Shown here: piece after piece, positions 1,604 through 18,116 of the stretch
Numbering within the stretch: position 1 is the first letter of the stretch
Layout of the letters: the number at the start of each line of letters is the position of its first letter
NCBI GenBank assembly: GCA_016180645.1
Contig: JACPAV010000058.1
Location: 1-18,349, forward strand
Direction: 5' to 3'
DNA length: 18,349 nt
DNA from: Nitrospirota bacterium
GTDB taxonomy: Bacteria; JACPQY01
The notes under the pieces: model-generated
The model's input: the letters and a program-made list of their open reading frames with translations, nothing else
What the model was told of the DNA's origin: nothing
The model's database searches: none
Translations under genes and position numbers: made by a program

Positions 1604-2074
1604 TTATTTCTTCCCCGCTTCCTTCCGCTTCAGCGTAAACCCGGTCTTCTCTCCTGCCGAGGACTTCGCGCCCGTCAACGGTAGATCCACGACCCTCTCT
1701 TCGTCGGCCACAACCACCTTTTCGCGCGCAATCTCGACCACTCGCCTGCCGTGGATCAGGTCGCCCGGTCGCACCACCTGCCCTTCCACCACGGCCATCG
1801 AACGGCTCGGATCGCGCGCGTTGAAGAAGATCGCCGAGACCACGTCCGGCAGTCCCGGCTGCGTTCGCGGTCCCGTCTCGTGTTCCGAAAACGGATCCCT
1901 TCCCCAAGGGAGCACCGGCATGGGATTCAAGCGCACATGCGAATCGACATCCGAAAGAGGAGCGGCGAGCGCCAAAGGCGCCGTGAATCGTGAACCGTGA
2001 ACCGTGAATAGAAAGACGAAAAGCGCCGGGATTCCGGACCGCCAGGAACCAGGAACCAGATACCTCCACTTCAC
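1604..2074 (-). CDS. pilP: PilP-like pilus assembly protein
   Basis: This 156-residue exported protein is the last gene of the pilus cluster. The N-terminus has basic residues, a hydrophobic stretch (about residues 15-24) and an AxA-type site (LALAAP, about 34-39), so it looks like a signal peptide. No lipobox cysteine is seen, unlike classical PilP lipoproteins. The body has the short beta-rich PilP/GspC-like look: WGRDPF near residue 57, then GQVVRPGDLIHGRRVVEI and EERVVDLPL. PilP links the PilN/PilO inner-membrane subcomplex to the outer-membrane secretin. It starts with GTG overlapping the pilO stop as GTGA. Two different heptamer repeats lie inside the signal-peptide coding region, so a gain or loss of one unit would shift the frame. 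Identification rests on position and general features rather than strong motifs. Confidence 0.7.
   Translation of the reverse strand: MKWRYLVPGSWRSGIPALFVFLFTVHGSRFTAPLALAAPLSDVDSHVRLNPMPVLPWGRDPFSEHETGPRTQPGLPDVVSAIFFNARDPSRSMAVVEGQVVRPGDLIHGRRVVEIAREKVVVADEERVVDLPLTGAKSSAGEKTGFTLKRKEAGKK
1982..2059. repeat. Two heptamer arrays within the pilP 5' coding region
   Basis: Four adjacent heptamers of the CGTGAAC/CGTGAAT type occupy 1982-2009. A second, unrelated heptamer, CCAGGAA, is repeated 2.6 times at 2042-2059. Both lie in the part of pilP that encodes the signal peptide. The unit length is not a multiple of three, so each unit reads in a different frame (FTVHGSRFT across the first array). 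Confidence 0.85.
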
Positions 2075-2631
2075 TTCAGCATCTTCCCCTTTGCCGTCAT
2101 GCTGATCGAGAGATCCGGCTCACCCGGCTTGGAAGCGACCATTTGCAGGCCCTGGATTTCGAGCACGATCGGCAACGTTTCCACGCGTTCGATGAACTGG
2201 CCAAACTCCTTGTACGTGCAGAGAACGTTGAGCTGGAACGGAATCTCCACACTGTCGCTCAATTCCCGCGGCTGCGACGGCCTGAACTCCACAAAATTGA
2301 CCGGCCCCCGCACGTCATCCCGCGTCATGACCTCCATGAGCTGCGAGAGCCGCATTTCCTTGGGGAGTTTCTGCCGCGACATCTCCACCTGCGCGCGAAG
2401 CTCCTCCAGTTGCTTCCGCGCCTGCGCCACCACCTCTTCGGAGGCCGCGCCGCCCCTGGCGAGGATTTCCATCTGGGCCGCCTGCGATCGCAGACTCGTC
2501 AGATCTCCGTCCATCGCGATGATCGCCGCGCTCCTCACGCGATATAGACGCTCGTAAAATGCATACGTGCCCATCCCCAGGATGGCCAGAAGCATCGCCC
2601 ACTGCCGGTATTTCTCGAGCTTCTCCCGCAC
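2071..2631 (-). CDS. pilO: PilO-like type IV pilus inner-membrane protein
   Basis: The 186-residue bitopic protein has a short cytoplasmic N-terminus, one membrane segment at about residues 11-27, and a charged heptad-like coiled-coil region (about 40-90). The C-terminal ferredoxin-like domain reads FQLNVLCTYKEFGQFIERVETLPIVLEI, a characteristic PilO signature in which two segments pack around a conserved small-residue and aromatic stretch. PilO pairs with PilN in the periplasm to form the alignment complex. The GTG start at 2631 lies nine bases after the pilN stop, and the stop overlaps the pilP start. The Shine-Dalgarno signal is poor (GGGAG lies almost on the start), suggesting translational coupling. 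Confidence 0.88.
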   Translation of the reverse strand: MREKLEKYRQWAMLLAILGMGTYAFYERLYRVRSAAIIAMDGDLTSLRSQAAQMEILARGGAASEEVVAQARKQLEELRAQVEMSRQKLPKEMRLSQLMEVMTRDDVRGPVNFVEFRPSQPRELSDSVEIPFQLNVLCTYKEFGQFIERVETLPIVLEIQGLQMVASKPGEPDLSISMTAKGKMLK

Positions 2632-2640
2632 TCCCGAGCT

Positions 2641-3216
2641 CTATCGTTTCAGGTCCGCCGTAATCTCGAATTCCTGGAGCGACTCCCCGGCGCCCGCCGA
2701 CTCCCGGCTGAAATTCAGAAAGATGTTCTTGAAAAACCGGGATCGCTCCAAGGCCAGAATAAGTCCCGCCACGGCGTGGTTGTAGCGGGCCCTTCCCGTC
2801 ATCACGAAGGAGTGAATCGATTCCGTTGCCTCCTTGCCCGATTTGAGTTCGGTCAGCCAGAGCCCGTCGGGCGCGATGAAGCTGAGTTCCCGGAGAACAT
2901 CGGAAAAGTAGAATCGCTCGTCCTGGAAACTGCGGACCCGTTGGAGCTGGCCGTTCAGAGCCTCGGTCTCCCGGTTGATCGCCGCCATCGTGTCTGTGTA
3001 CTCCTTGAACTTGCTGCTCCGGCTCGACAGGGAGCCGATCCGCACCTGGAGGTCCGCTTTCTCATGCTTGAGCCGACGGTACGAGCGATCCTGGAAGAAG
3101 AAGGCCAGCGCCAGGATCAGCGCGAAGGTTCCGAAGACCGCCGCAAAAACGAAGTTAAACGGGACCTCAGGCGCTTTGAGTAGCTCCCGAGGGAGGAGGT
3201 TGATTCGATCCCGCAC
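2641..3216 (-). CDS. pilN: PilN-like type IV pilus assembly protein
   Basis: I start this gene at GTG 3216, giving 191 residues, instead of the longer upstream frame. The conserved PilN motif INLLP then falls at residues 5-9, and AAGGGG lies a suitable distance upstream. In the family this cytoplasmic tip is the segment that binds PilM. A membrane helix follows at about 20-42, then a coiled-coil (about 45-95) and a periplasmic ferredoxin-like domain (WLTELKSG, then FVMTGRARYNHAVAGLILALE). The first 100 bases overlap the end of pilM in another frame. Confidence 0.88.
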   Translation of the reverse strand: MRDRINLLPRELLKAPEVPFNFVFAAVFGTFALILALAFFFQDRSYRRLKHEKADLQVRIGSLSSRSSKFKEYTDTMAAINRETEALNGQLQRVRSFQDERFYFSDVLRELSFIAPDGLWLTELKSGKEATESIHSFVMTGRARYNHAVAGLILALERSRFFKNIFLNFSRESAGAGESLQEFEITADLKR

Positions 3217-4313
3217 TCTTTGATTCCCCTTGTCGCTTGCCCCAGCGCCACGGCGAACACCGGGGACAATTTCTTGAACGCGTTGATTTCCTCGGCCGTT
3301 CCCGCCAACGTCGCCGTCTGCAACGGGTTCATGACCGTGCAATCCAGCCCGAGAAATTCTCCGACCGAGGTGGAGAGACCGGGCAGCAGGGACAACCCTC
3401 CGGACAAATACACGGCTTCAATTTCGTCTTCCCGGAATTGCATGCGGAAGTAGTCGAGCGTTCGATGGAATTCCGCGCACGCTTCGTCGATCTCCGACCG
3501 CAGCGCCTCCGCCACTCCCTCGGGCGGCGGATCGCCTTCCTGCCGGGCCGCGGCTTCCGGCGCCAGGCCGACCCTTCGAACCAGGTCCTCCGCCGCCGCG
3601 ACCTCGAGAGTAAACGCCCGGCCCACCGCTTGGGTGAGATTGGACAGACCGAAGGGAAGACCCCGGGCAAAAACCAGCTTCGGCCCTTTCGCCACGGATA
3701 CCGTGGTGTTGGATCCGCCGAGATCGATCAGCGCGTAGTTCTTCCTCGCCTTGAAGGCGCCCAGGGACCGCCAACATGCGGCCAGTGCCGTCGGCACCGT
3801 GTCCACCGCCATGGGCACCAGGTCCGCCGCCTGGAGCATTTTGACGTGGTCGTCCACCGCGCGCCGTTCCACCGCGAAGACGACCATCTTCAGCATGCTT
3901 CTCTCCCGCAGTTCGCCGTCCGTCACGAGGTAGTCGAACACAATGTCATCCGTCTGCATCGCCACCTGTTTCTTCAGTTCGAAGCGAACCCCCTCGCGCA
4001 ACTCCGGTTCCGGCATCCAAGGAAGGGTGAGGTACGTCACCGTGAGCGAAGGATCCGAGACCACCGAGGATACCGGCGACTTCTGGAGCTGCCGCGCCTT
4101 GATCAACTCCTTCAGGAACCCGGTCAAGGTTTCCATATTGACGACGGATTCTCCCTCCGGGGCCGCGGGTGCCTTGGCATAGACAAGCTCCTCCACGTGA
4201 AGTCCGGTCTTGGTTTCCGCGAGTCGAACCATCTTGAGGTGCGAGCTGCCCAGATCTACACCCAGAAGCCGACCTTTGCCGCGAAGGCGGTCAAGGATGG
4301 ACCCACCGATCAC
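3117..4313 (-). CDS. pilM: PilM-like actin-fold ATPase of the pilus alignment complex
   Basis: This 398-residue cytoplasmic protein has the actin/FtsA fold motifs: LGVDLGSSHLKMV at residues 17-29 (phosphate 1), ALIDLGGSNTTVSV in the middle (phosphate 2) and VYLSGGLSLLPGL late in the protein (adenosine-binding). The family binds ATP and the N-terminal tip of PilN, coupling cytoplasmic motors to the inner-membrane complex. The GTG start at 4313 has a good upstream GGGGAGGA. The family normally ends soon after the VFAVALGQATRG segment. Here the frame runs about 37 residues further, into the pilN coding region, with a basic serine/arginine-rich tail. A 107-base gap separates it from the TPR gene upstream; I see nothing definite in that gap. 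Confidence 0.9.
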   Translation of the reverse strand: MIGGSILDRLRGKGRLLGVDLGSSHLKMVRLAETKTGLHVEELVYAKAPAAPEGESVVNMETLTGFLKELIKARQLQKSPVSSVVSDPSLTVTYLTLPWMPEPELREGVRFELKKQVAMQTDDIVFDYLVTDGELRERSMLKMVVFAVERRAVDDHVKMLQAADLVPMAVDTVPTALAACWRSLGAFKARKNYALIDLGGSNTTVSVAKGPKLVFARGLPFGLSNLTQAVGRAFTLEVAAAEDLVRRVGLAPEAAARQEGDPPPEGVAEALRSEIDEACAEFHRTLDYFRMQFREDEIEAVYLSGGLSLLPGLSTSVGEFLGLDCTVMNPLQTATLAGTAEEINAFKKLSPVFAVALGQATRGIKECGIESTSSLGSYSKRLRSRLTSFLRRSSEPSR

Positions 4314-4420
4314 GTATCGATTCCTCCCCGCGGCCCGAAACAGGCGGCGCGCGTCACCTTGACACTTCCGTTCGCCGACCTGGAGCGCAGCGGAATGGGC
4401 GACGCGTGCGCCGAACGGGG

Positions 4421-5284
4421 TTACCCGCCCAGCCGGATCCTTCGGTTAAGGCCCTTGAGAATTTCCGGATCGAGGTTTTCCGCGAGGTCCTTGTATTGAG
4501 CGTAGTGCCGGCCGGCTTCCTGCCAGTTTCCTTCCCTCTCCAGCATGATGGCCAGGTTGAGATGGGCGTCCGCGTAGCGCGAATTGGCCGCGATGGCCTG
4601 ATTGAAGAGGGCTTTGGCCTGCTCACTCTGCCCCATCTGCATCCACACCACCGCCAGGTTGTTCATGCACTCTACGCAGCCGGGATCGATCTCGATGGCC
4701 CGCTTGTAGTGGGTTTGCGCGTCAGACAGCCGCCCAAGCATCTTGAGCGTCAGGCCCACGTTGCTGTTGTACTCCCCCGATGTGGGATCACGCTTCAGGG
4801 CCTCCAGGAACTTGTCCCGGGCGCCCTCATAGTCCGCCTTCGCGAAAAGCGCCTTGCCCTCGTCGTTATACATTCCGGCCACCTTCACCTGCACCGGATC
4901 GGCATGGAAAGCCTGCGACCCACCCGCCCCCGGCGTCTCGCCTCTTTCCGGCTGCACGTCCTGGAGGTTCTTGGGCATCGGCACACCCAGCTTCTCGGGT
5001 GTGTCTCCAATGCCGGGCGCCAATTCGTATTTCGGCGTCTTCACGACGCCGATCTTGATCATCAACTCGGTGAACGCATCGCCTCGGATGAACCATGCGA
5101 GCAGCCCCGTGATCACAATGGCGATCAGGAGAACCACCACCCGGACGTTGATCTGGCCCCGGCGGCGCCCATCCGCCTGCGGAGGCGGCCCTCCGCGCGC
5201 AGCTTGGCGCGACATCGCCAAGGACGGAGGATTCTCCGCCGCCTGGCGATCAATTTTCTTGAGCGATCTGTGGATAATGCTCAT
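4421..5284 (-). CDS. Membrane-anchored TPR protein, MshN-like
   Basis: The 287-residue protein has a basic, disordered cytoplasmic N-terminus and one membrane helix (about 47-66). A proline/glycine-rich linker follows, then four tetratricopeptide repeats (about 138-167, 172-201, 206-235, 240-269) in which the Gly/Ala/Tyr positions are evident, e.g. NNLAVVWMQMGQSEQAKALF. Position next to an ExeA/MshM-like ATPase and pilMNOP matches MshN of MSHA-type pilus clusters. A scaffold or secretin-assembly role is inferred. The start is well supported by AAGGAGGG just upstream of ATG, 13 bases after the ATPase stop. Confidence 0.8.
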   Translation of the reverse strand: MSIIHRSLKKIDRQAAENPPSLAMSRQAARGGPPPQADGRRRGQINVRVVVLLIAIVITGLLAWFIRGDAFTELMIKIGVVKTPKYELAPGIGDTPEKLGVPMPKNLQDVQPERGETPGAGGSQAFHADPVQVKVAGMYNDEGKALFAKADYEGARDKFLEALKRDPTSGEYNSNVGLTLKMLGRLSDAQTHYKRAIEIDPGCVECMNNLAVVWMQMGQSEQAKALFNQAIAANSRYADAHLNLAIMLEREGNWQEAGRHYAQYKDLAENLDPEILKGLNRRIRLGG

Positions 5285-5297
5285 TGCGCCCTCCTTC

Positions 5298-7067
5298 CTA
5301 GAGACTGGGGACCTCTTCCCCGAGCTCTTTGGCGATCAGCATGCGGACGACGACGTCGGGACCCCCATGGTCCGGCAACGCATGTTGCCGCTGGAACTCG
5401 CGAAGAGCCTGATCGGTCAGCGTACCGTAGTATCCCGTGATCACTCCACGGTAGTAGCCGAGGTCGACCAAGTCCTTTTGAAGGCGAGCCACCCAGGGAC
5501 CGCTGGTGTCCTTCTTGAAGTCCTGCCCCTCATAATAATCCCTCCACAGATAGATCATCACATCCTGTGATGTTTGCACCAAAGAATTTTCATCCACGAG
5601 CCGTTCTCCATAGACCGGGTCCAACACCCTGAATCCATTATCCTCGACGGAGCGCAACAAGGCAAGACGGTCTCCCGCCACCCCGTCGGCCTTCAAGTTC
5701 ATGAGGCAGGGGTACCCGATCTTCCTGGCGATGTCGGCGGAGAACGGAAGCTCCAGGTAGCTGAGACCGGCGGCCTGCACCGGCTCGAGCTGGGCGAGGC
5801 CCTGTACGTCCACGCGGTCCAACGCCTCGACCATGGGAGGAGTCAACGCCACACCCCACAGGCGGAGATACTCGGACATGATTCGGCCGGACGAGAGGGT
5901 CACCCGTTCCGATTTCGCGAAGGCGGAGGGCGTGGCCGACCACCCGGCTCTCTCGGCAGACTTGGGTGTGGCCGCGGCATCCGCCGATGGGGTCGCTCCC
6001 GCGGCCTCCGACCGGTCCGGATCGGCGGAACCTTCCGGAGCCGATGCCGTCTCGATGGTTGCACCCAGGAGCTGACTGGTCAGTGACCTCAGATCCACTT
6101 TTTCGAAGAAGCCGCCCGCCATGAACCCGGCGGCCAGGAAAGCCGTTCCTGCCGCGCCCACCCCGGCGTATCGCAGTCCCTTCCGGGCCGCTTTCTTGGC
6201 ATGGATCGTCCAGGACGCCCGACGCGGCCTGGGGAGATGAATCTTCTGCTCCGGCTGATCGCCTTCGAGGTCCCGCATCGCATCCTCCACGATGCCGCGA
6301 TCGATGATGAAACTCTCGCGGGAGTAGGCCGCCAAAAGCACCCGCTCGCAGAGCAGATTGATTCGCCGCGGATAGCCTTCCGTGTACGTGAAAATCAAGT
6401 CGAGCGCCGGCTCAAAGAATTCGATTTCACCCTGCGAGCCGGCCTTTTTCAGCCGGAAGTAGATGTACTCGCGGGTTTCGTTCCGATCGAGCGGAAGAAG
6501 GTGGAATTTCACGGTGAGCCGCTGGTTGAGCGGTCGCAGCACCGGTTCCTGCAATCGATCCCGGAGTTCGGGCTGGCCGACCAGGATGATTTGAAGAAGT
6601 TTCTTCTTTTCGGTTTCGAGGTTGGAGAGCAGCCGAACCATTTCAAGCGAATCGTTGGAGAGATGTTGGCCCTCGTCGATGATGACCACGGCGTTGCCGT
6701 CCGCCCGGCTGCGTTCGAGGAGAAATTGATTGAGCGCTTCGATTTCTTCCGAGGCCGAAGCAGCCGAGCCGTAGGGAACCTCGAAATCTTTCATGATCGC
6801 GCGAAGAAGTTGGCGTTGGTCGGAAAATAGCGGATTCAGAACAAGGGCCGTCGAGGTATTGTCCGGGAGTTGATCGAGCAGACGGCGGCAAAGGGTGGTT
6901 TTTCCTGTTCCAACGTCGCCCGTAATCAGCAGAAATCCCCTTCGGTAGCGAACGCCATAGACGAGATGATCCAGTGCGGCCTGATGCTTCGCCGAAAGGT
7001 AGAAGAAGGCAGGGTCCGGGGTCGTCCCGAAAGGCCCCTCCTTCAGGCGGAAGAAGTGTTCGTACAC
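5298..7067 (-). CDS. ExeA/GspA/MshM-like AAA+ ATPase with peptidoglycan-binding domain
   Basis: The 589-residue protein is the first gene of the pilus operon. The N-terminal AAA+ domain has Walker A GDVGTGKT (50-57), Walker B VVIIDEGQHL (127-136), a sensor segment LVGQPEL (162-168), an arginine in NQRLTVKF (about 183) and GYPRRINLLC (231-240). One membrane helix (about 298-320) and a low-complexity Ala/Ser-rich linker follow. The C-terminus (about 525-585) reads as a peptidoglycan_binding_1 domain (RLQKDLVDLGYYRG, then LREFQRQHALPDHG). In Aeromonas, ExeA with ExeB helps place the secretin through the cell wall; MshM is the pilus counterpart. The same role is inferred here. The GTG start at 7067 has GAGGAAAATA just ahead. 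Confidence 0.9.
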   Translation of the reverse strand: MYEHFFRLKEGPFGTTPDPAFFYLSAKHQAALDHLVYGVRYRRGFLLITGDVGTGKTTLCRRLLDQLPDNTSTALVLNPLFSDQRQLLRAIMKDFEVPYGSAASASEEIEALNQFLLERSRADGNAVVIIDEGQHLSNDSLEMVRLLSNLETEKKKLLQIILVGQPELRDRLQEPVLRPLNQRLTVKFHLLPLDRNETREYIYFRLKKAGSQGEIEFFEPALDLIFTYTEGYPRRINLLCERVLLAAYSRESFIIDRGIVEDAMRDLEGDQPEQKIHLPRPRRASWTIHAKKAARKGLRYAGVGAAGTAFLAAGFMAGGFFEKVDLRSLTSQLLGATIETASAPEGSADPDRSEAAGATPSADAAATPKSAERAGWSATPSAFAKSERVTLSSGRIMSEYLRLWGVALTPPMVEALDRVDVQGLAQLEPVQAAGLSYLELPFSADIARKIGYPCLMNLKADGVAGDRLALLRSVEDNGFRVLDPVYGERLVDENSLVQTSQDVMIYLWRDYYEGQDFKKDTSGPWVARLQKDLVDLGYYRGVITGYYGTLTDQALREFQRQHALPDHGGPDVVVRMLIAKELGEEVPSL

Positions 7068-7113: not shown

Positions 7114-7280
7114 CAACTAACTTCACATGGCAAGTTCGGGGGTGGTGGCGTCACAATCGTCAATTGGTTGGGGGTGGGTACTGCTTGAAACTATTAGTCG
7201 ATACCAGGGAAATCGTGAATGGCAGCACGCTGGAGCGAATTTCCTGCACTTTTCGGTATCCGGAAGAATCCCCGTCGCGT

Positions 7281-7378
7281 CACGACTCACGACTCACGAC
7301 TCACGACTCACGACTCACGACTCACGACTCACGACTCACGACTCACGACTCACGACTCACGACTCACGACTCACGACT
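7281..7378. repeat. Perfect 14-copy heptanucleotide array (CACGACT)
   Basis: CACGACT is repeated exactly 14 times with no mismatch (98 bases). On the minus strand it begins directly after position 63 of a tRNA-Val gene and replaces the end of that gene. Stretches 7114-7280 and 7442-7551 on either side hold no gene that I can support. Confidence 0.97.
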
Positions 7379-7551: not shown

Positions 7552-8535
7552 CTACCCGGCCTCAGACGCGGACTCTTGGTGTCCTTCCTCGCTCTGGCCT
7601 TGCCAATAGGCGTTGAGCACTCCCCCGGCGCGTTTCAGATTCCACGGGGACAGGTGCGCGTAGCGGAGCGTCATCTTGATCTCCTTGTGGCCGAGCAGTT
7701 CCTTGATCGTGAGAATGTCCACCCCGTTGATGGCCAGCCAAGAGGCGTAGGTGTGCCTCAAATCGTGAAAGCGGAAACCTTCGATCCCCGCCCGCTTCAT
7801 GGCCGCGTGAAAACCCTTCTTGAAATCCAGGTACTCTTTCCCGCTCTTGTTGAAGAACACCAACCCGGCCTTGATATGGTGGGGAAGGCTTGAAAGACAC
7901 TCCTTCACTTCGTTCGTCATCGGCACAACCCGCACCGTTCCATTCTTCGTCCCGATAATCTTGATTGCTCGGTTGGTGGAATCCACCTGCTCCCACGTCA
8001 TCGACAGGAGTTCCCCACGCCTTGCGCCCGTGTGCATCGCGGTGAGGACAACGGCGTACAGATGGGGGGAGCTACTGGCGCGGCACTCCGCAAGCAACGT
8101 TTTCCCTTTCTCCAAGGTGAGGTATCTCAGCCGACCGGGGGGACGCTTCAACGGCTTCACCTTGTGGGCGACACTCGATTCAAGTTCTCCCCACTCCACG
8201 GCTTTGGTGAACAGGTGCTTGAGGGTGGTGAGTTCCCGATTCACCGTATCCGGCGCTTTCCCCGCGTCCAGACGGGCGGATTCTTTCCCGTGCGACATGA
8301 GGCTCCGCAACGTCTTCACCGCCTCAAGCCCGGCCTCCGAAAGCTGGGCCATCGTCCGGTCCAGGATGTCCCGCTTGAGTCGGTCCAGTTCGGCCTTGAA
8401 TGCCGGATCGTCCAGGCGGCGGTAAGCGGTCGCCCGGCTCACTCCTGTGGCTTTTGCGCACTCGTCCACGCTCTTCCCGGCGGCTAGGGCCGCAAGCAGG
8501 GCCGCATCCTCGTTTTTCGTCTCACTACGGCTCAT
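7552..8535 (-). CDS. Tyrosine recombinase with N-terminal HTH domain (probable fusion)
   Basis: The 327-residue protein has a complete catalytic domain: Arg172 (TGARRGEL), Lys197 (TKNG hairpin), His257-x-x-Arg260 (HDLRHTYASW), His283 (LLGHKEI) and nucleophile Tyr292 (TLRYAHLS). Such enzymes integrate and excise phages and genomic islands. The core-binding domain is short. Only its end is visible (PDTVNRELTTLKHLFTKAVEWG, about 95-116). The first about 93 residues instead form a helix-turn-helix region (CAKATGVSRATAYRRL, about 26-41) followed by helices like those of small phage DNA-binding/terminase-small-subunit-like proteins. The junction lies near residue 94 (about base 8256). The start ATG overlaps the stop of the nuclease gene upstream as ATGA. 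The stop lies 110 bases from a tRNA gene. Confidence 0.88.
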   Translation of the reverse strand: MSRSETKNEDAALLAALAAGKSVDECAKATGVSRATAYRRLDDPAFKAELDRLKRDILDRTMAQLSEAGLEAVKTLRSLMSHGKESARLDAGKAPDTVNRELTTLKHLFTKAVEWGELESSVAHKVKPLKRPPGRLRYLTLEKGKTLLAECRASSSPHLYAVVLTAMHTGARRGELLSMTWEQVDSTNRAIKIIGTKNGTVRVVPMTNEVKECLSSLPHHIKAGLVFFNKSGKEYLDFKKGFHAAMKRAGIEGFRFHDLRHTYASWLAINGVDILTIKELLGHKEIKMTLRYAHLSPWNLKRAGGVLNAYWQGQSEEGHQESASEAG

Positions 8536-8855
8536 GGCGTCTCACCGACCGGGAACCCCTCCGGCTCATGCCCGTAGTCCTGCCACCGATGGACGATCCG
8601 CTTGAACCCGGCCGGGCAAGGGAAGACCGCGAGAAGGGCGATTTCCGCACGGCTGGGGCGTCGGTTCGCCTTCACTTGAACGAACAGCCCCCCGGACTCG
8701 TTCACCGCCACCACGTCCGCCGGGCCAGGAGATCCCGCCGACCGGATGCACCGGAACCCCTGCCGCTCAAGGTAGCGGATCGTCCGGTATTCAAGGCGCC
8801 CGTCCTCCGCAGTAGCCTCGCTACGGAGGGTGGATCGGCCTTTCGCGTAGCTCAC
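8532..8855 (-). CDS. Small PD-(D/E)XK-like nuclease, Hjc-like
   Basis: The 107-residue product has the compact restriction-endonuclease-like pattern of archaeal Holliday-junction resolvases and phage nucleases. It shows a helix with Glu22 (LEYRTIRYLERQGF), then RSAGSPGPADVVAV with Asp47, then the strand LFVQVKANR with Gln60 and Lys62, i.e. D-x(12)-QxK in place of the commoner ExK. Substrate and activity are inferred from family resemblance only. The GTG start overlaps the stop of a six-codon leader-like ORF (GTGA), and its own stop overlaps the recombinase start, so the two genes form one unit. Confidence 0.65.
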   Translation of the reverse strand: MSYAKGRSTLRSEATAEDGRLEYRTIRYLERQGFRCIRSAGSPGPADVVAVNESGGLFVQVKANRRPSRAEIALLAVFPCPAGFKRIVHRWQDYGHEPEGFPVGETP

Positions 8856-9640: not shown

Positions 9641-10042
9641 CTACCAGATGGCTTGGACCAAACCGCTGCTGAGAATTCGCCGGTCTTTTGTCAGGAGCGT
9701 TGCGGCTTCCACCAGCGCGGTCGCCACAATCAGCCGATCGCATGGATCGCCGGGAAACGAATCGGGCAATTGGGCTGCCTGAACGGCGACGATCGGCGTG
9801 ATGGGCAACAGCTCAGCACCTGGGACCGCCAGGGCCTCTCTCATCCAATCCAGCGGACCGCGATCGATCGAAATGCGTCGCCGCGCAACCAACCTTGCGA
9901 ACTCCCAGCAACTGATGGCAGGCACGCCCACATGACGGGCGGAGCGCAAGGTTGCGGCTGCCCGTCGACTCAGCCGATCCGGGTTGCTCGTCCACCAGAT
10001 CCAGGCGTGCGTATCGAGAACGATCAGTCTTCCGTTCCCCAC
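9641..10042 (-). CDS. vapC: PIN-domain ribonuclease toxin, VapC-like
   Basis: The 133-residue PIN-domain protein has the expected acidic residues: Asp10 in VLDTHAWIWW, Glu47 in ISCWEFARL, Asp99 and Asp102 in GDPCDRLIVATA, and Asp120 in LLTKDRRI. These bind the metal ions for RNA cleavage in the family, whose members often cut tRNA or rRNA. It is the second gene of a two-gene toxin-antitoxin unit. Its GTG start overlaps the antitoxin coding end by 19 bases, the usual arrangement for coupled expression. The RNA target is unknown. Confidence 0.92.
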   Translation of the reverse strand: MGNGRLIVLDTHAWIWWTSNPDRLSRRAAATLRSARHVGVPAISCWEFARLVARRRISIDRGPLDWMREALAVPGAELLPITPIVAVQAAQLPDSFPGDPCDRLIVATALVEAATLLTKDRRILSSGLVQAIW

Positions 10043-10356: not shown

Positions 10357-10411
10357 GTAGCCGCAGGCTTCAGCCTGCGTCCAAAGACGCACCCCTAAAG
10401 GGTGCGACTAC
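10357..10411. repeat. REP/BIME-like element C, same architecture with a different sequence
   Basis: GTAG (10357-10360) precedes an 8-bp hairpin (10362-10369 with 10372-10379, loop TC, centre CTTCAG). A second 7-bp hairpin (10388-10394 with 10400-10406, loop CTAAA) is followed by CTAC (10408-10411). Arms differ from elements A and B, but the order of tetranucleotide, hairpin, spacer, hairpin and inverted tetranucleotide is the same. It lies in the spacer before the Kelch gene. Confidence 0.65.
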
Positions 10412-10539
10412 CAAGGGATCGCCCGGCAATCATGGGGTTTCCAAACGGGGCCTGGGACCCCTTGCAGCATACCCCTACCGATCACGCCCTCCGCAGTCCG
10501 AGTCCCGCCTTCCGCTTGCCCGCCGCTGAGGCCGGTCGT

Positions 10540-12126
10540 ATGATTCGCGCGGTGGAGCGGAAAATCTCTCTCGCTTTGGCAATCGCGGGATTCGCCTTGT
10601 CCCTCGTTGGTCTCACGCTACCGAGCTCTTGCGCTGGTTTCCTAGGCACCCCTGCTGAGGACCAAATTGCGCCCGACGCGCCGACCGACTTCTCCGTTCA
10701 GTATAATCAGAATGAAAGGGAGGCACTTACGCTTCGGTGGAAAGACAATTCGGATATCGAAACCCACTACGTGATCGGGGTGTCCACTGAAGTCGAAGGC
10801 CTCGCGTTCAATTTTGAGCGCTCACTGCCACCCGATTCCCAGGAGTATTCAATGAGCCCTCGCAAACCTGTGCGTTTCCGGGTCGCCGCCTCCAACGGGG
10901 AGGTGCGATCGGAATACCTCCTGGGGTGTCTCTCCTACGAGGACATGGACGGTGACGGCTGGGGTACGCAACTGGCGGCTAATGTGGGGCCGTGCCCAAG
11001 CGCAATTTCATTCCTCAAACCCGGGGATTGCAACGACAAGGATTCGAACATTTCTCCCGGCAACAAGACGGGGAATGGCACGGACTGCACCCTTCCGATC
11101 GTGGCCGTACTTCCCTATGCCAAGGCGGGCCTGTCGTGCGCAGGGGGGAGCAAGGGAATGATCTATTGTTTCGGCGGTATGGGCTCGGCCGGCATACCCT
11201 CTAGTGAGATCCTGGAATTCGATCCGGATTCCAAGCGAGTGAACGTGCGCCCTGCACGACTTCCATCTGGTCGTTCAGGCCTCTCCTGCGTCAGCGCCGT
11301 AGATCGTCTGATATATTGCTTTGGTGGCGATCCAGAAACCGCTGACATCATCCAATACGATCCCTCCACCGACACGGCCGATCGGCTGTCCGCCTCCCTG
11401 CCCTCGAAGCGAGCCTATCTTTCCTGCGCCTCTTCCGCGAACGGAAACGTCTACTGCTTCGGGGGAGATGGTTCCGACCCTCAGGTTGTGGAGTTCGACC
11501 CCCGGAAGAGCACCGTGGAGCCCAAACTGTCTCAGATGCCGTCCAAGATCACCGGCCAAGCCTGCTCGCCGGGAGACGGGAACAAGATCTACTGTTTCGG
11601 GGGTGATAGCCTGTCCGAGCCCCAGCCCCACTTCCTCGATTGGATTCGGGAGTACAACCCGGATAGGAACGAAGTGAAGATGAAATCAGCCCGGCTGCCG
11701 GACAGGTGGTTTAGCGGATCGTGCGCGGGGGCAGGCGTGGGAATCATCTACTGCCTTGGGGGCGTGTTGAGTGGGCCGAATAACGTTCAATTTATCAAGT
11801 ACGATGCGAATACCGATTCGGTTTGGTCAAGATTCTCTCCCATAACATCGCCCCGAAGCTCGCTTTCGTGCTCACCTTCTGTCAGCGGCAAGATCTACTG
11901 CTTCGGGGGCCTAGTCCCGGGCAAGGACGGATACGTGCAGACTGACGAGATCGTGGAGTTCGATCCGAAGAGATTTCCGCTGGCTCCGGAGAGGCAGGTG
12001 AGCGTGACGGCTCCCATGATATTCTCCGGCGAATCTCCGCTTCGAATCGGCGACGGAACACCCCCGCTCCCGGAGGCGCCGGCCTTCGGCTGCTCCGCCC
12101 TGCCGTTCAAGCCGCGCGGCGATTGA
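10540..12126 (+). CDS. Secreted Kelch-propeller protein with FN3-like and MopE-like segments
   Basis: I start at ATG 10540 (528 residues) because a signal peptide begins there (basic start, hydrophobic core about 10-26, then LPSSC31). The longer frame reaches back into repeat element C. LPSSC is only an approximate lipobox, so a lipoprotein is possible but unsure. Residues about 45-120 look like a fibronectin type III domain (PDAPTDFSV, LTLRWKDNSD, VRFRVAAS). Residues 133-183 carry DMDGDGWGTQ and GDCNDKDSNISPG, the calcium-type motif of MopE-like surface proteins. Six Kelch-type blades follow, each with a Y-C-[FL]-G-G turn (Cys210, 260, 306, 352, 405, 454). Every blade also has a second cysteine about ten residues earlier (200, 250, 296, 342, 395, 444), suggesting one disulfide per blade. 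The location is probably periplasmic or on the surface, and no ligand is predicted. Confidence 0.82.
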   Translation: MIRAVERKISLALAIAGFALSLVGLTLPSSCAGFLGTPAEDQIAPDAPTDFSVQYNQNEREALTLRWKDNSDIETHYVIGVSTEVEGLAFNFERSLPPDSQEYSMSPRKPVRFRVAASNGEVRSEYLLGCLSYEDMDGDGWGTQLAANVGPCPSAISFLKPGDCNDKDSNISPGNKTGNGTDCTLPIVAVLPYAKAGLSCAGGSKGMIYCFGGMGSAGIPSSEILEFDPDSKRVNVRPARLPSGRSGLSCVSAVDRLIYCFGGDPETADIIQYDPSTDTADRLSASLPSKRAYLSCASSANGNVYCFGGDGSDPQVVEFDPRKSTVEPKLSQMPSKITGQACSPGDGNKIYCFGGDSLSEPQPHFLDWIREYNPDRNEVKMKSARLPDRWFSGSCAGAGVGIIYCLGGVLSGPNNVQFIKYDANTDSVWSRFSPITSPRSSLSCSPSVSGKIYCFGGLVPGKDGYVQTDEIVEFDPKRFPLAPERQVSVTAPMIFSGESPLRIGDGTPPLPEAPAFGCSALPFKPRGD

Positions 12127-12209: not shown

Positions 12210-15200
12210 TCAGTGGTACCAGATCATCACGCCCATGGTGTAACGGACGTCATCCTCGCCGCCGTCGGGATCGGGAATGGCGGAGAACTGGGGCACGGCG
12301 GCATCCACATGCGGGATGAGCGTCCGCCAACCGATCCTCCTCGATCCGTTCTGCAAAAGCGGCGCGGCAGCCTTCTCTTTTGAAGGCTGCGAAGGAGTTT
12401 CGTCCCACTTCATGCGCGAGGTCACGAAGATCCCCGTGCCCAGCCCGATCAGACTCCCGATCGGCGCGCTCAAAAAGAACACGTCTCCTTCCCGGCTCAG
12501 GGGCAGCCCCATCGCGCTCCCCACGCCCAATCCCGTGAGACCAAACAGGTTGATCCATCCCATCCGGCGCGGCGGAATCTTCAGTTTCAGCAGCGAATAG
12601 GTCGTTGTGATCTGGCCGACGTTGCTCGCGATCACCGCCGCGGTCGTCGTGTTCTTCGGACTCCCCGCCGCGGCCTGCGCGAACATCGAGCCGACGAATC
12701 CGCCCCAGATGCCGCCGGTGTACGCCACGGCCGCCGTTCCGCTCCCCACTTCGAGATCGTAGGTGATGATCATCGAGGTTCCCATGCCGAGCGACGCCCC
12801 GAGGATCGCGGCCCCCAGTGTTCCGCGCGGCGACTGGTCGCCGAACTGTGCGAGCGCCACGCCCTGCCCGAATCCGTAGAGCGTGCCGAAGGTGGTGAAC
12901 AGCTTGGCGCCCGGTGTGTACCGGATCTGTGGCGCCGCCCGCGAGCCCAGCGCCATCGCGCTGAAGCCCATCGAGTACATCGAGATCACCACGTTCCGGC
13001 CGTTCCAATCCTCTGCCGTTAATCCAATTCCCAAGCCCGAAGCCGATCCCACGAGCCCGGCGAGCGTCACAAAGCCCGATGTGCCCGCCGCGGGTTCCCA
13101 AAGCGCAAAGCTCAGCGTAGTGACACCGAGTCCCAGTGGCAGACCCAACATGGCGCCTCCCAGGACCTGTTGGCTCGAAACATGCTTCGTAGTTCCCTCA
13201 AGGACCCACGGAAATACGGTGCCGTATCCGAGGCCGAAGAGCCCGCCCATGCGCAAGGCCTCAGCCTGCGCGGGCTTCGGCGTAATTCGCGGAAGGAGAC
13301 TCGCTCCGGCGGCGCCCATGACCGCCCCGCCCGACAGCATGAGCGCCGTATTCTTACGATATGAATTTTCGGCAAGAAATCCCGTGCCCGCGCCGGCCAT
13401 CGAGCCGAGAAGCTCTCCGGAGAAGAATCCGGTGTAGGCGCGGGGGTTGACTCCACTTCCCGCCAAGGCCATCCCCGTAGCCAGCCCCACCGGCCCGCCG
13501 ATCATGAGGCCGCCCGTGACGCGTTTCTGACTGATGTCCTCGAACTTCCTCGCCGCGAAGGTGGGCGACCACCCGCCGTACCACAGCCCGGCCATCGTTG
13601 AATACGCGATCAAGGGCGGGTAGGAAGCGCCGGCCGGCCCGGTTGGACCCGGAGGCCCGCCAGCCAGGAGCAGTCCCGCGATTCCGCTCGCCATTCCCGT
13701 TCCCAGCATGAGTGAGGTGGTGGCCCGGCGCGGAGCCAACGCCACGAATCCGATTCCGGTACCCACCGTCGCTCCCCACACCTGCCCGCCATAGAAACCG
13801 CCGAGCGACCGACCCGTCATGTCGTAGCGATTCGCGGCCCAGATGGATGACGTGAGGCCGAGCGGAACTCCTATCATGGTGCCCCCGACAATGCGCCTCT
13901 GCGGAATGTCGTTCAGATTCGCGCGCAGCAGCGTCGGCAGCCACGATCCATACCACGCTCCCGCGGCCGACCCGAGCCACAGGGAGGCTTTTTCCCCCGG
14001 CCCCCGAAGCGGCGAAGGTTCCACCATCTGCCGAACAAAGCCGTACCCGCCGATCGATCCCAGCGTCCCGCCCGCGAGCATGAAGGACGTGCGAGTCCTC
14101 GGTCCCTTCTCCGCCAGGAATACCGTTCCGGTTCCGGCCATGGAGCCGAAAACCTGCCCCAGAAAAAGACCCGAAGGCATGCGTGGCGGAATGTCCACGC
14201 GGTTGGCCACCCAAGTCGAAGTCGTCAGAGCCACGGGGACGCCGATCAACGCGCCGCCCGTGATTCTCCGTCGCGGCACATCCCGCGGATCGCGCTCGGT
14301 GAGAGTCGGCAGCCAGAAGCCGTACCACGCTCCGGCGAGTGTGGAGAGGTAGATGGAAGGCATACCCTGTCGCGGGGAAAGCACGAAGGGATCTCGCAGG
14401 TATTTTCCGTAGAAGTATCCGACCGACTGGCCGAAGGCCGTTCCGCCGAGCATCAGGGCGCGTGAGGTGCGCGGCGCGGCAAGTGAAGTCAGCCCCAGAC
14501 CTAATCCAAGGGAGGTCCCACTCAGACCGCCGAGAAAAAGAGAGGGGATCGTCCGCGCCGAAAGGTCGGTGTGGTTCGTGATCCACATGGAGGACGCCAT
14601 CGCCGTCGGAACGGCCATCATCATGCCGCCCGCAATATGGCGCTGTTCCACATCCGGCAGTCTTGCCTGCCCAAACGTGGGAAGCCATGCGCCATACCAA
14701 GCCGCGGAACCCGAATTCAGGAGCAGGAAACCGATCTCGCGCCCGCCGCGGAGCGGATTCGGTTCCACCAGCCGCGTGGCGAAGAAGTAGCCGCCTACTG
14801 AACCGGCCAGACCGCCGGAAGCCATCGTGTAGTACGAGCGATCGATCTGATCCCGGATGGCATCGCGTTTCGCTTCGGTGAGCTTGGGCGTGGTGCGCCC
14901 TGTTGAGAGCAGCCCCGCGCCCTGCCCCATCGAGGCGCCAAAGACCTGTCCCCAGAACAGGCCGGGAAGAACTCGCGGCCGGATGTCGTGACGATTGGCC
15001 ACCGCCAGCGCCCCCACGAGTCCGACCGTGCTCCCCATCATCCCCGCGCCGGCCACGCGGTTGTACGACACGCGGTCGCGAGGTTGCGCCGTCCGGAGCC
15101 CCTTCCTCAATTCCGGCACCCTGAAATACCGTCCGGTCCACGCGCCGTACCAGGCTCCATTGATCGAACCGTAGGCGAGAAAGAGGTCCTCGCGCCAGCC

Positions 15201-18116
15201 GCGGACAGGTGATGGCGGGGCCATGGCTCGGATGAAGCCGTACCCACCAGCCATGCCGAGGGCACCGCCGCCCAGCATGAGCGCCGTGAAAGGGCGACGA
15301 TTCTCCCGCAACGCGAGTCCCATCCCTGTCCCAAACCACAGGCCGAGCGCCTCGCCCATGAACAGGCCGTGATTCACGCGGGGCACAAGTTCCAAGTGGT
15401 GGATGGTGAAGAAGGAGAGGCCCAGCGCGGCGGGCGTGCCGGCCATTATTCCGCCGACGGACCGACGATCCCCATGTCGGCGTTTGGGCAACAATGTGGG
15501 AACCCAGCCTCCGTACCACGCGCCGCTTGTCGTGGTGAGCCATGCAAAGCTTTTTTCGCGCAGCGTCAGATTCCAGAGATAGCGCTGACTCATCTCGTAA
15601 CCCGTCAGCATTCCGGCGGCGCCGCCGCCCAGCATGAGGAGGGTGTGGGGTTCACGATCGGTCATGAACAGTCGCCCCACTCCGCTCCCAAAAGAAAATC
15701 CCAGCGCTTCTCCGAGAAACATGCCGTGATTGGATCGGAGCGGCAGGTCGAAACGATTTACCGCAATCAGCGATGCACCCAGTGTTGCCGGGACCGCGGT
15801 CATCATACCCCCGACGATCCGCCGCTCGGTGGATTTGCGTGCATGTAGCGCGGATGGAAGCCAGGCCCCGTACCACGCGCCACTGGCCGTCGCGAGAGAA
15901 ACGAACGCTTCTTCGCGGGTGGAGTAGGTCCACCGGAGGTTTTGGCTCATCCGGTAGCCCGTTGCGGCTCCGAGGGCGCTGCCGGACATCATGAGAAGCG
16001 AGAGCATCGGACGATTCCCTTCATACATCAGCGAGGTGCCTGCTCCTGCCACGCCGCCCAAGATTTCCCCGAAATAGAGACCCTGCGTTCCGCCGGTCGG
16101 GACCTCGATCGCATTGCCCACGGAGATCGTCGTCGCGACCAAGACCGGGAATCCCATCATCACGCCGCCGAGGGCTCGCTGCCGGCTCGAGGGTTCGTCC
16201 GGCTCCTGCGCAGGTCCGGAGAGGTCCACCGTGGTCCCTCCTCCCACGGGCGGTGGCGTTGGAGGTTTGCCGCCGGTCGGCGGGGGCTGCGGGGTAGGCG
16301 TTGGAGGCGCGACGGGTCCTGGAATTCGTCCCGGCCTCCCACCGATGGCCAGCGGCGCGAGCGCGCCGTAGTACGCGGCCGACGCAAAAACCCACGACTT
16401 GAATCCCGGCTGCTTGCGGGTGGCAGGGAAAATGCGGGCGTAGTTCGCCCCCACCAGGAGGCCCGCGGCTGAGAACGATTCCATTAACGTAACGGAGGCC
16501 CGGTCGAAGTCCCCGAAAAGCATCCAGCCGAGACCCGTGCCGAACTGCGCGCCGAGTCCCGTCCATGCGGCCGTCCGCAGCGACGTTGTCGGCGCATCGG
16601 CCATGTATTGATTCGTGATGAGTCCCGAAAAGTAGCCCGTGGACGCCCCCACCATGGCAGCACCCACGCGGGAAGTTTTCGCCGGTCCGGCTTTGAATAT
16701 CTCCGGCGCCCACGCGCCGGCCCACAAACCGTAGCCGGTACCCAGGAAAACATGGGACACGTTGGCGGAGCTGACGCTCACGCGGCTCGTCGCCATCGCG
16801 GCAGCGGCCAAGCCGGACGCCGATCCCCCCAGCGCAAGCCACGATGCCTTGGCGGCGCGGTCCCCCGGACCCGCCATGACTTCCAGTCCCCATCCGAACA
16901 TCCCTCCCGAGATCCCGCCGAAATTCACAAACATGGTGTCACCCACGTCCCAATCGAGCCGGTATGCCGAGATCGCGCCCACGGTGATGCCCATGCCCTC
17001 CCCCGCAAGATTGTACAGCCTCCGGATGTGCGGCTTCTCCTCCTTTATGCCGTTGGCCGCGAAGTGCGATGCGCCGATCCCCCAAATTGTGGAAGAGGCC
17101 CACCAGTAGGCCTTGCCGGTCGGCACGCCCTCGGAGAAGTGCGTGAGCAGATAGGCCGTGCCTCCGCCCACAGTCAGACCGATGGGATACGTCCATCCCG
17201 GCGAGACTTCCGATTGCGAGGCCCGCCGCATGAGTTCCATGAACGATGCGCTGTAGATCGCCGCGCTGGAGATGACGAGCCAGCGGCCTCTCATGCGGGG
17301 TGCCCCCGGCATTTCGGGCACGGGTGGCACGGCCGGCAAATCCGGGATGACAAGGGCGGACTCCGCCTGTTTCACCGGCGCGGGCGCGACGGATGGAGCG
17401 CCGGAATTCCCTGAGGCCACGGGAGGCGCGGGCGGCGGCTGCGTTTTCGGGGGCGCCGGAGCGGCCTTCGTCTCCACCGGCCCTGCCAGAACGCTTGCCG
17501 CCTCATCCTGATTGAGCACCGGCCCATTGGGCGTGATCTCAAGAACCCGATCGATTTCATCTCGCAGATCGTCGGGAATTCCCCACCGGATGGAGCTCAG
17601 CACTTTCTCCCAACCGGGCGGCGCCCGCTGCGCATAGTGTCGCACCGCACGACTGCGCACTGTCACCCAATATCTGTCGCTCATGATGACCCCTTCCAAT
17701 TCCAAGTCCACGAGGCCGGTCTGGAACGTGGATATCGATTCGAGGATCTCGGTCAAGATGTCCGTCTTGCGCTCCTTCTCGATCCTCTGTCGGAGGGCGG
17801 GAAACGCGACGTCTTCCGGCAATTGCCGGAGGGCGCGAACAACGGCCCTCCTCACATCGGGGACCTTGTCCCCCGACGCCCATTCAAGGGGCTTCGCGAA
17901 TCGGGCATCGCCGGTGCGACCCAGCCATTCCGCCGCCGCGATGCGTGCCGCGGGATCATCGGGGTTCATGAGCTGGATAAGCGCATCCGCCTCGTCCTTG
18001 ATCTCCACACAGAGGGCCGTTTGTGGAGAGAGCAGGTTGACAATGAGGAAGGATGCCAGGAACGGCAGCAGGAAGGCCCACAAACGACCGCACCCACAAC
18101 CACGACGGTCAGTCAC
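12210..18116 (-). CDS. Giant exported protein: HEAT-like N-terminus plus about a dozen glycine-rich hydrophobic modules
   Basis: The 1968-residue product is not a family I recognise. It has an N-terminal signal sequence (hydrophobic about 12-35) and HEAT-like helical repeats (about 40-195; e.g. DPAARIAAAEWLGRTGDA). A proline/alanine-rich linker follows (about 205-285) and a second one lies near 600-645. Nearly all the rest consists of modules of about 117-124 residues. Each has four small-residue-rich hydrophobic segments with recurring signatures: RRIVGG near the start, N-R-x-D-x-P-x-R, G-L-F-x-G-[EQ], L-M-L-G-G-G, and GAWYGAWLP at the end. Key tyrosines of the last signature or its equivalent fall at residues 583, 749, 868, 990, 1141, 1265, 1389 and 1513, with weaker copies at 1631 and 1747 and an Ala at 466. 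That predicts some 40 or more hydrophobic segments, probably glycine-zipper helices. The C-terminus ends in a short aromatic strand (MGVMIWYH). The GTG start at 18116 has no strong ribosome site and may be imprecise. Location and function are unknown. Confidence 0.85.
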   Translation of the reverse strand: MTDRRGCGCGRLWAFLLPFLASFLIVNLLSPQTALCVEIKDEADALIQLMNPDDPAARIAAAEWLGRTGDARFAKPLEWASGDKVPDVRRAVVRALRQLPEDVAFPALRQRIEKERKTDILTEILESISTFQTGLVDLELEGVIMSDRYWVTVRSRAVRHYAQRAPPGWEKVLSSIRWGIPDDLRDEIDRVLEITPNGPVLNQDEAASVLAGPVETKAAPAPPKTQPPPAPPVASGNSGAPSVAPAPVKQAESALVIPDLPAVPPVPEMPGAPRMRGRWLVISSAAIYSASFMELMRRASQSEVSPGWTYPIGLTVGGGTAYLLTHFSEGVPTGKAYWWASSTIWGIGASHFAANGIKEEKPHIRRLYNLAGEGMGITVGAISAYRLDWDVGDTMFVNFGGISGGMFGWGLEVMAGPGDRAAKASWLALGGSASGLAAAAMATSRVSVSSANVSHVFLGTGYGLWAGAWAPEIFKAGPAKTSRVGAAMVGASTGYFSGLITNQYMADAPTTSLRTAAWTGLGAQFGTGLGWMLFGDFDRASVTLMESFSAAGLLVGANYARIFPATRKQPGFKSWVFASAAYYGALAPLAIGGRPGRIPGPVAPPTPTPQPPPTGGKPPTPPPVGGGTTVDLSGPAQEPDEPSSRQRALGGVMMGFPVLVATTISVGNAIEVPTGGTQGLYFGEILGGVAGAGTSLMYEGNRPMLSLLMMSGSALGAATGYRMSQNLRWTYSTREEAFVSLATASGAWYGAWLPSALHARKSTERRIVGGMMTAVPATLGASLIAVNRFDLPLRSNHGMFLGEALGFSFGSGVGRLFMTDREPHTLLMLGGGAAGMLTGYEMSQRYLWNLTLREKSFAWLTTTSGAWYGGWVPTLLPKRRHGDRRSVGGIMAGTPAALGLSFFTIHHLELVPRVNHGLFMGEALGLWFGTGMGLALRENRRPFTALMLGGGALGMAGGYGFIRAMAPPSPVRGWREDLFLAYGSINGAWYGAWTGRYFRVPELRKGLRTAQPRDRVSYNRVAGAGMMGSTVGLVGALAVANRHDIRPRVLPGLFWGQVFGASMGQGAGLLSTGRTTPKLTEAKRDAIRDQIDRSYYTMASGGLAGSVGGYFFATRLVEPNPLRGGREIGFLLLNSGSAAWYGAWLPTFGQARLPDVEQRHIAGGMMMAVPTAMASSMWITNHTDLSARTIPSLFLGGLSGTSLGLGLGLTSLAAPRTSRALMLGGTAFGQSVGYFYGKYLRDPFVLSPRQGMPSIYLSTLAGAWYGFWLPTLTERDPRDVPRRRITGGALIGVPVALTTSTWVANRVDIPPRMPSGLFLGQVFGSMAGTGTVFLAEKGPRTRTSFMLAGGTLGSIGGYGFVRQMVEPSPLRGPGEKASLWLGSAAGAWYGSWLPTLLRANLNDIPQRRIVGGTMIGVPLGLTSSIWAANRYDMTGRSLGGFYGGQVWGATVGTGIGFVALAPRRATTSLMLGTGMASGIAGLLLAGGPPGPTGPAGASYPPLIAYSTMAGLWYGGWSPTFAARKFEDISQKRVTGGLMIGGPVGLATGMALAGSGVNPRAYTGFFSGELLGSMAGAGTGFLAENSYRKNTALMLSGGAVMGAAGASLLPRITPKPAQAEALRMGGLFGLGYGTVFPWVLEGTTKHVSSQQVLGGAMLGLPLGLGVTTLSFALWEPAAGTSGFVTLAGLVGSASGLGIGLTAEDWNGRNVVISMYSMGFSAMALGSRAAPQIRYTPGAKLFTTFGTLYGFGQGVALAQFGDQSPRGTLGAAILGASLGMGTSMIITYDLEVGSGTAAVAYTGGIWGGFVGSMFAQAAAGSPKNTTTAAVIASNVGQITTTYSLLKLKIPPRRMGWINLFGLTGLGVGSAMGLPLSREGDVFFLSAPIGSLIGLGTGIFVTSRMKWDETPSQPSKEKAAAPLLQNGSRRIGWRTLIPHVDAAVPQFSAIPDPDGGEDDVRYTMGVMIWYH
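13225..16370 (-). repeat. Periodic coding repeat within the giant gene (core modules)
   Basis: Marks of the GAWYGAW signature or its equivalent in DNA occur at 13225, 13579, 13951, 14323, 14695, 15148, 15514, 15871 and 16369. Intervals are 354, 372, 372, 372, 453, 366, 357 and 498 bases. All are multiples of three, and the three identical 372-base steps show the unit length (124 codons). The longer steps contain insertions: a charged segment (RTTPKLTEAKRDAIRDQ) and a proline-rich linker. DNA identity between units is low while protein signatures persist, so the duplications are old. Confidence 0.85.

Follow-up and report, generated by a model that had tools for sequence, protein, structure and literature searches.

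A 1968-residue, putatively exported protein of tandem glycine-rich modules from a groundwater bacterium, and its relatives

The locus and the giant gene

The window (the whole 18,349-nucleotide stretch analysed here, in contig C58) belongs to a 4.7 Mb, 97% complete genome of a groundwater bacterium whose phylum is almost unsampled; comparison at the phylum level comprises one other genome, G001. The minus strand of the window carries a 1968-codon open reading frame with a GTG start (Table 1), for which the preliminary description, made from the sequence alone, had named no strand. Against its relative in G001, an orthologous N-terminal fragment, the gene has a dN of 0.30 and a dS of 1.32 (ratio ~0.23); against a 1762-aa paralogue in the same genome the values are 0.45 and 1.54 (ratio ~0.29). 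These low ratios, together with its GC3, indicate that the open reading frame is not a chance one and that the giant gene is real. Purifying selection acts on it.

Table 1. Features of the giant gene, in window coordinates
Feature	Position	Strand	Evidence
Giant gene, 1968 aa, GTG start	12210..18116	-	dN/dS ~0.23-0.29, GC3 0.76
Signal peptide region, residues ~1-36	18009..18116	-	hydrophobic segment 12-31, read by eye
HEAT repeats, residues 44-127	17736..17987	-	Pfam HEAT_2, E 3.8e-11
Proline-rich linker 1, residues 213-272	17301..17480	-	sequence
Tandem module array, residues 280-1912	12381..17279	-	14 profile matches; AF2, four helices per module
Proline-rich linker 2, residues 589-641	16194..16352	-	alignment; interrupts array, missing from paralogue
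Module with ~16 extra residues inside, residues 1020-1159	14640..15059	-	alignment
372-bp module, residues 1160-1283	14268..14639	-	profile matches
372-bp module, residues 1284-1407	13896..14267	-	profile matches, AF2
372-bp module, residues 1408-1531	13524..13895	-	profile matches
C-terminal tail, residues 1913-1968 (56 aa), ending RYTMGVMIWYH	12213..12380	-	alignment with relatives

The signal peptide, HEAT-like repeats and proline-rich linkers of the preliminary description were all recovered at the positions listed in Table 1. Relatives of the protein carry leaders at the position equivalent to its own. The match to PF13646 (HEAT_2) reaches 43.6 bits against a cut-off of 27.7, in the N-terminal domain only, and the same region also matches alphaRep/HEAT chains in the PDB. 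At the other end of the chain, the tail occupies the same position as the Phe-ending tail of most relatives.

Several further features lie in the window. A Type IV pilus/secretion-type cluster spans 2071-7067 on the minus strand, with PilM (3117-4313), PilN/PilO-like genes (2641-3342 and 2071-2631), a TPR protein, and an ExeA-like AAA ATPase with a peptidoglycan-binding domain (5298-7067). Between genes, at 7280-7378, the heptamer TCACGAC is repeated 14 times in tandem without a mismatch; a small ORF near 1990-2070 contains a run of a related heptamer (TTCACGG type). At 7552-8855, on the minus strand, a phage-type integrase sits beside a small Hjc-like nuclease-fold protein, with a lone PIN-domain protein behind the pair (9641-10042). 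The gene convergent with the giant gene (10402-12126, plus strand) encodes a Kelch-repeat protein that looks exported and has a MopE-like motif and a weak match to fibronectin-III.

Repeat modules, paralogue and wider family

Self-BLAST missed the repeats; an iterated profile HMM revealed them, matching 14 times within residues 291-1912 (E < 1e-9 throughout and mostly between 1e-20 and 1e-35). The array consists of 13-14 tandem modules of ~107-124 aa each, where the preliminary description had counted roughly a dozen. Each module is predicted to form four helices with glycine-zipper spacing, equivalent to two hairpins, or ~27 hairpins per chain. Module starts at residues 1160, 1284, 1408 and 1532 bear out the earlier observation of three successive spacings of exactly 372 bp (124 codons), and small in-frame insertions do occur elsewhere; the ~16-aa insertion in the module that starts at residue 1020 is common to the giant and the paralogue. 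Two of the 14 profile matches half-overlap near the C-terminus, which suggests that the repeat unit may be a half-module of ~55-60 aa. There is no more than a hint of two-fold symmetry inside a module: hhalign scored 16.4 (probability 8), and shuffles reached up to 13.3.

The paralogue, on contig C35, is 50% identical to the giant. Nine or ten modules pair one-to-one and in order between the two proteins, at 43-72% identity; identity among modules within one protein is mostly 23-46%. This ordered pairing implies that most of the tandem duplication is older than the gene duplication. For two of the giant's modules, those at 766 and 1284, the paralogue offers no clean counterpart; judging by these alignments, one or two modules turned over after the gene duplication, the earlier expansion being ancient. 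Tandem duplication followed by divergence under selection, as first proposed, is in keeping with both this comparison and the dN/dS ratios. In G001, the orthologous fragment is ended by the edge of its contig (JACPQY010000062, from a groundwater metagenome), and the same genome encodes a distant 683-aa version with HEAT repeats and ~4.5 modules (~9 hairpins). A small, frame-broken remnant of this 683-aa type is found on contig C33 of the giant's genome. A candidate operon partner of the paralogue starts seven bases past its stop codon (L012:13935-14504): a gene for a 190-aa exported protein that lacks Pfam matches and itself contains a glycine-rich hydrophobic hairpin. MlaE/MlaD/MlaF-like genes lie further on, on the opposite strand.

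The modules have no match in Pfam, NCBIfam, PHROGs or the PDB, and a literature search returned no description of the module family. Pfam and PDB profile matches of the modules, such as those to Wzz, TraT and DUF992, are at chance level, as is an NCBIfam match of the giant to NhaA (15.7 bits vs. a cut-off of 254, over 50 residues only). The preliminary description, which knew of no characterised family with this plan, was therefore right on that point, but other proteins have the modules too: among several hundred genomes sampled across Bacteria, the module profile matches proteins in ~20 genomes and at least 14 families. One of these genomes (G189), of another phylum, encodes another giant of the same plan, 1709 aa long. 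Most relatives are 340-500 aa in length (those of G054, G150, G268, G288 and G333, for example) and comprise a leader, a variable N-terminal domain, 4-8 hairpins and a tail. Many have an N-terminal domain with the motif FPE..F..ARL, and HEAT repeats are absent from most; a leader and a glycine-rich repeat are found in all. The last residue is Phe or Trp in 17 of 20 family members, counts that are not phylogenetically independent, and the window protein and its paralogue end in ..MIWYH, that is, in His.

Three tests argue for homology rather than a shared glycine-rich composition. Relatives score 22-65 bits with the module profile; when each protein was shuffled 200 times within local windows, the maximum was 4-10 bits. 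In an independent comparison of profile with profile, modules of the window protein align with those of other phyla at an hhalign probability of 97.6 (E 4.7e-12, 106 columns). A profile built without the window protein recovers, in the giant's genome, only the giant, the paralogue and the C33 remnant (E 1.2e-5 to 0.0015); this reciprocal search is the weakest of the three, given its weak to moderate E values. The giant itself scores above the composition controls and is recovered reciprocally. On these profile comparisons, the modules define a widespread and undescribed homologous family, and the 1968-aa protein is its largest member found here. The occurrence of the family in ~20 genomes without an entry in Pfam, NCBIfam or PHROGs means that a large putative envelope component has gone unannotated.

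Among the neighbourhoods of 13 relatives, none is conserved beyond one family pair beside DoxX and ETF-QO, and the genes nearby offer no clue to function. A plasmid search was empty. The G189 giant is followed after 2 bp by a gene (L056:6235-7530) for a polytopic membrane protein which, by eye, has a nucleotide-translocase/MFS-type look. Four short proteins—L085 in G195, L082 in G100, L084 in G366 and L087 in G238—have a leader, a single glycine-zipper hairpin and a family-like tail. It is possible, given their weak homology, that these are one-hairpin members. The resulting size series, from possibly one hairpin in 133 aa, through 4-8 in ~450 aa and ~9 in 683 aa, to ~27 in 1968 aa, offers a test case for the scaling of glycine-zipper hairpins via tandem duplication.

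Predicted structure and location of the array

An AF2 model of one module (residues 1284-1407), made with the module alignment, has helices at 3-24, 31-51, 56-81 and 90-115 (pLDDT 63.7, pTM 0.38), and a three-module model made with separate alignment rows has the same secondary structure (pLDDT 43); both place four helices of ~21-26 residues in each module. A Foldseek search against the PDB returned nothing at E < 1. The models support helical hairpins, if weakly. The preliminary description was accurate and aptly cautious about membranes. The role that it suggested for the chain, a scaffold or pore in either membrane, is unproven; the predicted helices are marginally hydrophobic and the confidence of the models is low to moderate.

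Apparent dG values derive from a simplified reimplementation of the biological hydrophobicity scale rather than from the predictor as published. By this measure, the repeat regions of the giant, the paralogue and the G189 giant contain no segment at dG < 1, vs. 1.0-1.2 such segments in every 100 aa of LacY and NhaA, and the KD19 maximum of the window protein is 1.8 vs. 2.5 in those transporters; the window protein has no strongly hydrophobic, transporter-type transmembrane helices. At a loose threshold, hydrophobic segments are as dense in the array as in LacY and NhaA, and segments of 19-23 residues with dG < 5 occur 2-3 times per 100 aa in the array vs. never in four beta barrels. The array is intermediate in hydrophobicity, below inner-membrane transporters and above outer-membrane barrels, and close to SlyB. 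Its Ala/Leu/Met content is that of NhaA, and Asn and Asp together make up 4% of it vs. 14-17% of OmpF, BamA, LamB and FadL, the four barrels tested, which it does not resemble. Gly, Ala and Ser account for 36-38% of the array, and charged residues are almost missing from long stretches.

One reading of these values is a polytopic inner-membrane protein, a scaffold or channel with HEAT repeats in the periplasm, whose marginal helices would be inserted cooperatively, as hairpins, by Sec/YidC. The composition near that of NhaA and the transporter-like segment density at the loose threshold are consistent with it, as are Arg/Lys-rich loops between the helices of the window protein. However, neither paralogue, nor the G189 giant, offers a repeat segment at dG < 1, and the C-terminal Phe strand of the relatives would have no role at the inner membrane. 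We consider this reading unlikely, albeit the most credible of the alternatives.

Residue periodicity bears on a second reading. In module segments 1 and 2, small residues alternate with large ones at period 2; side-chain volume in the relatives does so less strongly (z +0.39, as in barrels). A very large or multiple beta-barrel outer-membrane protein, in which the glycine-rich segments would be strands or strand pairs and the tail a beta-signal, could account for this alternation, for the signal peptide and for the frequent C-terminal Phe/Trp. Yet both AF2 models are all helix, the array is poor in Asn/Asp and rich in Ala/Leu/Met, and it contains the helix-length segments that are missing from the four barrels; it does not combine a barrel composition with amphipathic strands and an absence of such segments. 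Further, module segment 4 has a period of ~4, and the large-residue face of segment 2 carries a conserved Glu/Gln. Helix N-cap [ST]P pairs are not enriched (19 observed vs. 16.8 expected). A barrel architecture is improbable, and we retain it because of the period-2 alternation.

It is also conceivable that the hairpins pack against each other without spanning a membrane, as a periplasmic or extracellular helical solenoid, soluble or lipid-associated. The marginal hydrophobicity of the segments would permit this, and HEAT is itself a soluble repeat. But a soluble solenoid needs polar faces, and an array with few charges and so much Gly, Ala and Ser makes this the least probable of the readings considered.

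The reading that we tentatively prefer, at somewhat less than an even chance, is that the giant is an exported protein of the envelope, its hairpins joined into a single, probably outer-membrane, belt, with the HEAT domain as periplasmic adaptor. Its leader would be removed after export through the inner membrane; the HEAT adaptor would sit in the periplasm, followed by a flexible proline-rich arm; and ~1630 residues, or ~27 glycine-zipper hairpins, would pack against one another in a row, most probably within the outer membrane, as one long belt or arc. Such a belt might lend the membrane organisation or support, or encircle a protein partner bound by HEAT. The giant would share the family plan of leader, variable N-terminal domain, hairpin array and C-terminal strand. 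We infer membrane insertion, outer-membrane location and belt function.

Omp85/BamA proteins are encoded in the giant's genome, and the host is therefore diderm. In most Escherichia coli outer-membrane proteins, a C-terminal beta-signal (GXX-aromatic-X-aromatic) is read by BAM (PMC13067283). The relatives' C-terminal aromatic strand resembles this signal and, together with the leader and the marginal helices, favours export across the inner membrane and assembly in the outer one. Set against a belt are the low AF2 confidence, the empty Foldseek search, the lack of a sequence relation between the modules and SlyB, the giant's terminal His in place of Phe, the absence of conserved gene neighbours, and the period-2 volume alternation in the relatives, which helices do not predict. 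Integral outer-membrane proteins are, as a rule, beta barrels, and no polytopic helical protein this large is known to us from that membrane. The more specific proposition—that a bacterial outer membrane houses a single-chain polytopic alpha-helical belt of ~54 helices, whose class of size and topology is undescribed there, and that its family extends across many phyla—seems to us rather doubtful.

Comparison with known systems

HEAT repeats are common to a thousand unrelated proteins, and the genuine HEAT_2 domain of the giant accounts for no more than ~4% of the chain, at its N-terminus. Lipoproteins of the YiaD glycine zipper/OmpA type (NCBIfam NF053611) give a weak match to the G054 relative (E 0.038; 13.7 bits vs. 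a cut-off of 175), and a protein of glycine-zipper plus OmpA type in G093 is a marginal match to the family; the window protein has no OmpA domain. No Pfam glycine-zipper family was reported for the modules. The relatives, the G189 giant included, share the giant's module repeats, leader and C-terminal tail, but mostly have 4-8 hairpins and other N-terminal domains, HEAT repeats being present in the 683-aa protein of G001.

The nearest model for the array is SlyB of E. coli, an outer-membrane glycine-zipper lipoprotein. SlyB assembles into ring-shaped oligomers that span the membrane and enclose outer-membrane proteins (PMC13067283; for the rings, Janssens et al., 2024, as cited in PMC13082787). 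Sequence homology of the modules to SlyB, of the SlyB/17-kDa antigen glycine-zipper family, was looked for and not found (hhalign probabilities of 2.4 and 1.3). SlyB is exported and has a glycine-zipper helical hairpin, as is predicted for the giant, and the two are alike in glycine content and marginal hydrophobicity. Unlike the giant, with its ~27 predicted hairpins and HEAT repeats, it is a 155-aa lipoprotein with one hairpin region that oligomerises. The giant's leader, LLSPQTALCVEI, has T-A-L before Cys which, by eye, is not a lipobox, and that of the paralogue ends in ..PSWSQTEE. By analogy, the array might act as SlyB rings do, with the subunits joined in one polypeptide. An outer-membrane location, if real, would make it an exception to the beta-barrel rule: a polytopic chain of tens of helices, in contrast to a small, oligomerising lipoprotein.
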